This document shows, one piece after another, positions 11,223 to 12,865 of a stretch of DNA of 39,396 nt (position 1 is the stretch's first letter; each line of letters starts with the position of its first letter). A program made the position numbers and the translations under genes. The notes beneath the pieces are model-generated. The model saw nothing but the letters and a program-made list of their open reading frames with translations. It did not search any database and was not told the DNA's origin. Origin of the DNA: Bacteroidales bacterium (GTDB taxonomy: Bacteria > Bacteroidota > Bacteroidia > Bacteroidales > JAADGE01). The stretch is taken from the NCBI GenBank assembly GCA_029934705.1, contig JAOZLS010000004.1:1-39396 (forward strand). The letters are read 5' to 3'.

Positions 11223-11585
11223 ATTTTAAATTTTGTTAAAGACTATATAAAAAGCTTATTTACAATTAGTTTAATATTTATAGTTTGCTTTTTACCTGCA
11301 AACGAGGTCGATAAAATTAGTAATTTTAATTTTATTTACTTAGATAAAATTATACATTTTTCAATGTTTTTTACTTTATCTATTGTTCTTTTCTTTGAAA
11401 TAAAAAAACCGATAAGAAAAATTTTCCTATCGGTTATATTCGTTTCTTTATTTTTAGCAAGTTTTACAGAAATAATTCAACATACTCTTATTACATCACG
11501 CTCTGGCGATATTAATGATTTTTTTGCTGATATGCTTGGAACTTTTACTGCTATTTTATTCTACTATCTAAAATTTAAAAATTAA
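11202..11585 (+). CDS. VanZ family protein
   Basis: 'DKIIHFSMFFTLSIVL' and 'FTEIIQHTLITSRSGDINDFFADMLGT' motifs; 5' end overlaps hemW 5' end, 3' end overlaps the Rrf2 gene. Confidence 0.8.
   Translation: MNINSRHILNFVKDYIKSLFTISLIFIVCFLPANEVDKISNFNFIYLDKIIHFSMFFTLSIVLFFEIKKPIRKIFLSVIFVSLFLASFTEIIQHTLITSRSGDINDFFADMLGTFTAILFYYLKFKN
11407..11435. repeat. near-perfect palindrome AACCGATA-A-GAAAA-A-TTTTC-C-TATCGGTT inside vanZ
   Basis: 8+5 bp of complementary arms interrupted by a single A/C mismatch; terminator-like appearance but within the CDS. Confidence 0.5.
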
Positions 11586-12018
11586 GTACTCCTTCTGCAT
11601 CATTTATTCCTTTTGCAAAATTTCCTATTGTTTGTTCTTTAAATATTTTCAGTAAATTTGTTCTTACTTCGTGCGATTTGCTATAAAAAGGACAATTTAC
11701 ATCACCTTTCTTTTGATTTTTACAAACCTTCATTCCAATTAAACATTCATAAAACACTTCAACACCATCTATTATTTTAACAATGTCATAGAGGCTAATT
11801 TTTTCGGGCTTTATAGCTAAAGTAAAACCACCATTAGGTCCTTTTGTTGAATTAAGTATCTTATTTTTTGCTAAATTTTGTAAAATTTTACCTAAAAAAG
11901 GAGCTGGCAAATTCAAATCTTTTGATATTTTTTTTATACCTAACTTCTCGTTGTCCTTAGCATTTACAGCTAAATATATAACTGAACGTATTCCGTACTT
12001 ACATGTATTTGAAAGCAT
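11575..12018 (-). CDS. Rrf2 family transcriptional regulator
   Basis: 'CKYGIRSVIYLA', 'KISKDLNLPAPFLGKILQNLAKNKILNSTKGPNGGF', three Cys in C-terminal half. Confidence 0.88.
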   Translation of the reverse strand: MLSNTCKYGIRSVIYLAVNAKDNEKLGIKKISKDLNLPAPFLGKILQNLAKNKILNSTKGPNGGFTLAIKPEKISLYDIVKIIDGVEVFYECLIGMKVCKNQKKGDVNCPFYSKSHEVRTNLLKIFKEQTIGNFAKGINDAEGVLNF

Positions 12019-12202
12019 AATTACTAAATTTTATTTCGGCAAAGATATAAAATTTAACCTGTGAATTACTGAAAAAAGTATATTAATCTATTTTAATACC
12101 TATTTTACTTAGGGATTGCTATGAAATAGTTTGCCAATTTGTCGTCATTCTTTTTCTAACTATTTATGATATTTAAAATGATTATCGACTATTGAATAAT
12201 GA

Positions 12203-12334
12203 GGCTTTAGTTTAAAATGGCGCTGTTATTTTGCCTATTTCAGGTATTTCTCACCTGAAATTTTGAGAAGAAGCGAAGTGAAAACACCTCACTTAGGCAA
12301 TTTATATCGACCAACGACATTTTAAACTAAAGCC
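12203..12334. mobile_element. MITE-like non-coding element, 132 bp
   Basis: Perfect 17-bp terminal inverted repeats GGCTTTAGTTTAAAATG (12203-12219) / CATTTTAAACTAAAGCC (12318-12334), immediately flanked by 8-bp direct repeat AATAATGA (12195-12202 and 12335-12342); no ORF inside. Confidence 0.78.
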
Positions 12335-12430
12335 AATAATGAATAACAATAATCGTAGTATATTGAATTCTATCTGATTACAATTTTAATATTATTAAAT
12401 AGTCATTAATCATTATTCATTTTTAAAACC

Positions 12431-12865
12431 TTATCTTAATGGTATTTTATTAATTCTAGCTAAATGTCTTCCTCCTTCAAATTTGGTTGACAAAAACTTG
12501 TTAACAATTTCAACAGCCAATTCTACTGATACAAAACGAGCGGGTAGGGCACATATATTTGCATCGTTATGCAAACGTGCTAACTCAGCTATCTCAACAG
12601 TCCAGCATAAAGCCGAGCGTATTTGCTGGTGTTTATTAACAGTCATATTTATTCCATTTCCGCTACCACATAACGAAAAACCTAAATCAAACTCTTTACT
12701 ATTAACAGCAGCTGCCATAGGGTGTGCAAAGTCAGGATAGTCAACACTTTTATCCGAATAAGTTCCAAAATCTTTTATTTCATAACCTTCTTTTGTTAAC
12801 ATCTCTATTAAAAACTTCTTAGTTTCAAATCCTGCATGATCGCTTGCAAATGCAATTTTTTTCAT
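12431..12865 (-). CDS. rpiB: ribose 5-phosphate isomerase B
   Basis: 'IAFASDHAGFETK', 'DFGTYSDKSVDYPDFAHPMAAAV', 'GFSLCGSGNGINMTVNK'. Confidence 0.92.
   Translation of the reverse strand: MKKIAFASDHAGFETKKFLIEMLTKEGYEIKDFGTYSDKSVDYPDFAHPMAAAVNSKEFDLGFSLCGSGNGINMTVNKHQQIRSALCWTVEIAELARLHNDANICALPARFVSVELAVEIVNKFLSTKFEGGRHLARINKIPLR

Follow-up and report, generated by a model that had tools for sequence, protein, structure and literature searches.

An intergenic MITE with IS1595-type ends carrying an inverted pair of REP-like hairpins in a Bacteroidales genome

The rpiB-rrf2 locus

The window, i.e. the whole stretch of DNA that was analysed (39,396 nucleotides), corresponds to contig 177 of a draft Bacteroidales genome of 4.26 Mb (G000), which is 95% complete and divided into 519 contigs. 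Between an Rrf2-type regulator gene and rpiB lies a short element whose anatomy is given below in the coordinates of the window.

11575-12018, minus strand: Rrf2-type regulator gene flanking the element (name taken from the initial annotation, in agreement with the translation)
12195-12202, no strand: left copy of the 8-bp target-site duplication (TSD), AATAATGA (direct reading and TSD statistics over 21 copies)
12203-12219, plus strand: left terminal inverted repeat (TIR) of 17 bp, GGCTTTAGTTTAAAATG (direct reading, TIR scan and comparison with IS ends)
12231-12262, plus strand: REP-like unit 1, head TTGCCT followed by the stem-loop ATTTCAGGT...ACCTGAAAT
12263-12274, no strand: linker joining the two REP-like units (boundaries approximate)
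12275-12301, minus strand: REP-like unit 2, in opposite orientation to unit 1, starting on the minus strand with TTGCCTAAGTGAGGTGTTTTCACTTC (boundaries approximate)
12302-12317, no strand: right subterminal segment, TTTATATCGACCAACGA region, which belongs to the MITE and not to the free REP-like units
12318-12334, minus strand: right TIR, CATTTTAAACTAAAGCC, the exact reverse complement of GGCTTTAGTTTAAAATG
12335-12342, no strand: right copy of the 8-bp TSD, AATAATGA (direct reading)
12431-12865, minus strand: rpiB, flanking the element on the other side (name taken from the initial annotation, in agreement with the translation)

Direct reading of the sequence bears out the initial annotation of this site as a 132-bp element (12203-12334) with perfect 17-bp TIRs and an exact 8-bp TSD, at the positions originally given. 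The lack of an ORF was also correctly described, the longest one found in the element being of 26 aa. Two additional repeats are located in the same intergenic region. A segment of about 45 bp beside the MITE (12109-12153, TTAGGGATTGCTATGAAATAGTTTGCCAATTTGTCGTCATTC) is another short interspersed repeat, with seven further sites in the genome at 86-93% identity. Contig 416 holds a 95% copy of the AT-rich segment 12391-12430 (AATAGTCATTAATCATTATTCATT), to which several genomes of the family add tandem-like relatives.

Copies in the host genome

The 148-bp stretch made of the element and its TSDs produces 41 alignments when compared to its own genome, and the TIR is found with at most two mismatches at 25 and 23 sites on the two strands, vs 3 and 1 for a reversed control pattern. 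These matches comprise about 20 near-complete MITE copies located on separate contigs, plus fragments; the initial proposal would have been undermined by a single-copy element, and this is clearly not the case. Two ends could be delimited in 21 copies, most of which measure 130-132 bp, the size outliers being a variant of 143 bp, a deletion form of 97 bp and a copy of 246 bp with an insert. The latter (C433:18867-19112, L073) is flanked by an exact TSD, and its extra insert measures roughly 115 bp.

An exact 8-bp TSD borders 9 of the 21 two-ended copies, and at least 7 of the 8 bases match in 16 of them, a count that never rose above 7 in 20,000 rounds of a control where the flanks were re-paired. 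When exact flanking repeats were screened at lengths of 6-12 bp, length 8 alone was observed. Each TSD-bearing copy occupies a separate AT-rich intergenic site, the target sites being 90% A+T, and no ORF of at least 90 aa is overlapped by a MITE copy. A paralogous empty site was also sought with the joined flanks; no continuous match was obtained, only short pieces of other repeats. The family displays the usual features of a MITE: it is short, devoid of a transposase ORF, bounded by TIRs, flanked by a TSD of fixed length and dispersed in multiple copies.

The copies differ from their consensus by 0-9%; the window copy is 3.8% away, copy C56 is the consensus itself, and the TSDs of seven other copies already display one mismatch. 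The MITE family is real and not extremely old, and not all of its insertions are fresh. The recent insertion suggested initially is for this reason only partly supported.

The same site in related genomes

A homologue of rpiB followed by one of rrf2 is present in nine genomes, eight from the same family and one from the same order, and the element is absent from the interval in all nine. The aligned gap between the two genes is about 70-101 bp in the eight family genomes and 13 bp in the single order-level genome, vs 412 bp in the window. The initial description of a non-autonomous transposable element is well founded, as the element is multi-copy, bounded by TIRs, flanked by 8-bp TSDs at independent sites and missing from this interval in relatives. 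Since the intergenic sequences of the relatives are too diverged, the empty-site comparison that had been suggested establishes the absence of the element at rrf2-rpiB and not the exact pre-insertion allele with a single AATAATGA, which was seen in none of them.

Beyond this interval, no full-length match to the MITE was found among the 98 relatives scanned, and no occurrence of the TIR with its subterminal bases in an exact scan of genome-contig and viral-contig collections. Similar MITEs were likewise not found in plasmids.

The mobilising family

A match restricted to bases 1-25 of the MITE occurs at five places in a family relative belonging to another genus (G014). One of these is a complete IS of 1087 bp (L063:387-1473) encoding a 340-aa transposase that matches NCBIfam transpos_IS1595 (NF033547, 1.5e-54) and Pfam DDE_Tnp_IS1595 (PF12762, 1.1e-11). 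The left 25 bp of this IS are identical to the MITE consensus and differ by one base from the window copy (12203-12227). Its right TIR is one base off, and on the right side the similarity between the MITE and the IS extends over about the first 20 bp only. The two flanks of the L063 IS do not match each other as a TSD; its right flank ATAACTTT is found again to the left of a further copy (L066), a sharing that may reflect a joined or recombined pair.

The L063 IS is the only complete one found with near-identical ends. Its transposase has 36 relatives in named genomes, nearly all of them Bacteroidota, and GGCTnTAGTTTA-type ends together with exact 8/8 TSDs are observed in more than 10 of these elements; no relatives were found in viral contigs. 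IS1595 elements with A/T-rich 8-bp repeats have also been reported elsewhere (PMC12561309). Judging from its ends and its TSD, the MITE can be assigned to the IS1595 family, where the initial annotation had considered such an assignment out of reach, and its call for a transposase-encoding element sharing the TIR is answered by these same IS1595 elements. The IS1595-type ends of the MITE lead us to infer that it would be moved in trans by a transposase of this family.

In the draft genome itself, a search for an intact IS1595 transposase was negative; a fragment of about 37 residues lies at the end of contig 211 and is not accompanied by the TIR of the MITE. This negative result weakens the case, less so in view of how fragmented the assembly is: an active IS could sit in the gaps of an assembly of 519 contigs that is 95% complete, or the MITE may be orphaned. 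An autonomous partner in the same genome does not define a MITE, as the partner can be lost.

The same genome harbors a second element with related ends (C39:8614-8806, L068), 193 bp long and flanked by the exact 8-bp TSD TTTATATT, whose palindromic interior is different. Judging from this one clear example, palindromic repeats may have been captured by IS1595-type ends on more than one occasion in this genome. Related IS1595-type ends enclosing a different palindromic interior are also seen from C49:1981 onward (L069).

The hairpin pair in the interior

The interior of the MITE, overlooked in the initial annotation, is a separate repeat family. It is composed of two outward-facing stem-loops of the form TTGCCTnnnnCAGGTG-TTTT-CACCTGnnnn, arranged in the consensus as TTGCCTATTTCAGGTGTTTTTACCTGAAAT, linker and the reverse of TTGCCTAAGTGAGGTGTTTTCACCTCGCTT; unit 1 of the window copy bears an insertion in its loop. 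The 16-mer CAGGTGTTTTCACCTG, allowing at most one mismatch, is found at 60 sites of the genome and its reversed control at none. Only 19 of the 60 sites fall within MITE copies and 41 lie outside, where the hairpins are either solo or in inverted pairs. In these free hairpins the head tTGCc/aT and the GGTG-TTTT-CACC part are constant and the outer arms are variable. Two core-only copies (L025, L027) contain both hairpins along with the linker that is conserved in the MITE copies, with no TIRs.

The hairpin is also present in other genomes of the order, including families without any full-length match to the MITE. Inverted pairs with the same composition are found free in a genome from another family (G085). 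Another genome from a family other than that of the host (G086) contains about 60 sites (for example at C427:10526-10983, L224), among them an array whose spacings are multiples of 62 bp.

Covariation was evaluated on 48 distinct hairpins collected from the host and from other genomes of the order. Standard pairs occupy 94.2% of the stem pair cells, and two-sided changes affect 84 cells vs 27.8 expected on shuffling, a control that is inflated by the kinship of the copies. The covariation score is 0.439, vs 0.116 after shuffling; sliding the partner by one to three columns, a control in which kinship is preserved, makes the score collapse. Since the conserved inner stem served to locate the sites, the informative part is that of the four outer pairs, which played no role in the search and hold most of the two-sided changes; the covariation of these outer pairs is strong.

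Classical REPs start with GTAG or CGTC heads and are often associated with a RAYT gene (PMC3733652, PMC6006769). Like REPs and REPINs, the present core combines a short palindrome and a conserved head with numerous intergenic occurrences, both single and as inverted pairs; its head is TGCC or TGCA, and no RAYT gene flanked by the palindrome was found among the PF01797 loci examined. As it departs from REPs in these two features, it is named REP-like and is not filed as a REP. Since the hairpins exist free, in core-only copies and in the pairs of G085, the interior of the MITE is most readily understood as a REPIN-like unit that the MITE carries. The hairpin family is apparently undescribed, a weak statement that relies on the open full texts, none of which contains the exact 16-mer.

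The core might instead represent a REPIN of the classical type that is mobilised by a RAYT (Y1 tyrosine transposase) and now rides in the MITE as well. The head tetranucleotide followed by a stem-loop, occurring solo and in inverted pairs in tens of intergenic copies, would fit such an origin, as would RAYT subclass 2.6, found mostly in Bacteroidetes and flanked by atypical secondary structures (PMC6006769). However, none of 26 PF01797 (Y1) loci checked across G000, G005, G014, G036, G085 and G086 displays a recognisable copy of the hairpin in the examined flanks. No recurrent transposase-like gene family accompanies the hairpins in 60 stretches, where the only groupings, of two or three ordinary genes each, are small and attributable to chance, and the head is not GTAG. 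These results make a RAYT origin rather doubtful. In the host genome, two near-identical Y1-type transposase genes with a YILNQEEHH motif are arranged in tandem (C17:2685-3699, L108 and L109); they show no association with the hairpins.

Interpretation

The element is interpreted, with a probability of roughly 0.9, as an IS1595-family MITE, with ends and TSDs of that type, carrying an inverted, outward-facing REP-like pair similar to a REPIN or BIME. An IS1595-family transposase acting in trans on the IS1595-type ends would insert the MITE in AT-rich intergenic DNA and generate the 8-bp duplications. Plausibly, a REPIN/BIME-like unit was captured by a pair of IS1595 ends, and the composite would then have spread to about 20 sites; the direction of this capture is presumed, whereas the independent REP-like units and the covarying stems are observed. 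A broader proposal, which we regard as speculative and rather unlikely, is that the TGC-headed CAGGTG-TTTT-CACCTG stem-loops found across the order constitute a separate REP-like class of mobile DNA. They would be disseminated by some transposase that is not a linked RAYT, and also as passengers, in the form of inverted pairs, of mini-transposons with IS1595 ends.

The reverse course of events was also considered, i.e. a MITE derived by internal deletion from an IS1595-family IS, with core hairpins that arose inside and later leaked out. The 25-bp left end common to the MITE and the IS is compatible with such a course, and L025 and L027 might represent MITEs that decayed and lost both ends. 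The core nevertheless bears no similarity to the body of the IS, the outer arms are far more diverse in free hairpins than in MITE-borne ones, and both free hairpins and inverted pairs exist in families of the order without a full-length MITE match, all of which renders this derivation improbable. Finally, the very stable fold (z = -5.9) would suit a regulatory RNA, or an attenuator, conserved in the rpiB-rrf2 region. As the primary explanation this reading is refuted by some 20 copies at unrelated loci with 8-bp TSDs, by the absence of the element at orthologous loci and by searches of the element that returned neither an Rfam family (a single chance match below threshold) nor an intrinsic terminator signal. 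An incidental effect of the element on rrf2 expression is possible, and its hairpins might influence neighbouring transcripts in general.

As an IS1595-family MITE, the element is of a known kind, and its nested composition is unusual. A MITE that would otherwise have stayed anonymous now has a mobilising family, and one sort of small repeat, the REP-like pair, is seen nested within another, a MITE of the DDE-transposase type. If such nesting were a regular route, it would help to account for the persistence and spread of REP-like palindromes in genomes without a linked RAYT.

Comparison with known systems

The closest counterparts of the outer part are the IS1595-family MITEs, in particular the ISHwa6-related MITE of Haloquadratum walsbyi (165 bp, PMC3852290), which like it has ends of the IS1595 type and 8-bp direct repeats, contains no ORF, measures 100-200 bp and is present in multiple copies. 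Unlike the latter, the present MITE is bacterial, its TIRs are of the Bacteroidota IS1595 type and an inverted pair of REP-like hairpins is found inside. With the Bacteroidota IS1595 ISs (L063 and its relatives with exact TSDs) it shares the terminal GGCTnTAGTTTA motif and AT-rich 8-bp TSDs, in addition to the 25-bp consensus end identical to that of L063, whereas the transposase and the remaining IS body are missing.

The core resembles REPINs and BIMEs (Bertels and Rainey 2011, PMC3116915), as well as GTAG and CGTC REPs (PMC3733652), in that it is made of two short palindromes in inverted orientation, whose head is conserved and which are found both singly and paired in the genome, and by its covarying stems. 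It differs from them by the TGCC or TGCA head, the TTTT loop, the lack of a linked RAYT among the loci searched and the location of the pair inside a transposon with TIRs and TSDs. The BrickBuilt MITE of Porphyromonas gingivalis (PMC4596501) offers a parallel for the composite as a whole, being a Bacteroidota MITE in which IS-type ends enclose an unrelated internal repeat; its ends are however of the IS5 type and its cargo is a 23-bp minisatellite rather than stem-loops.
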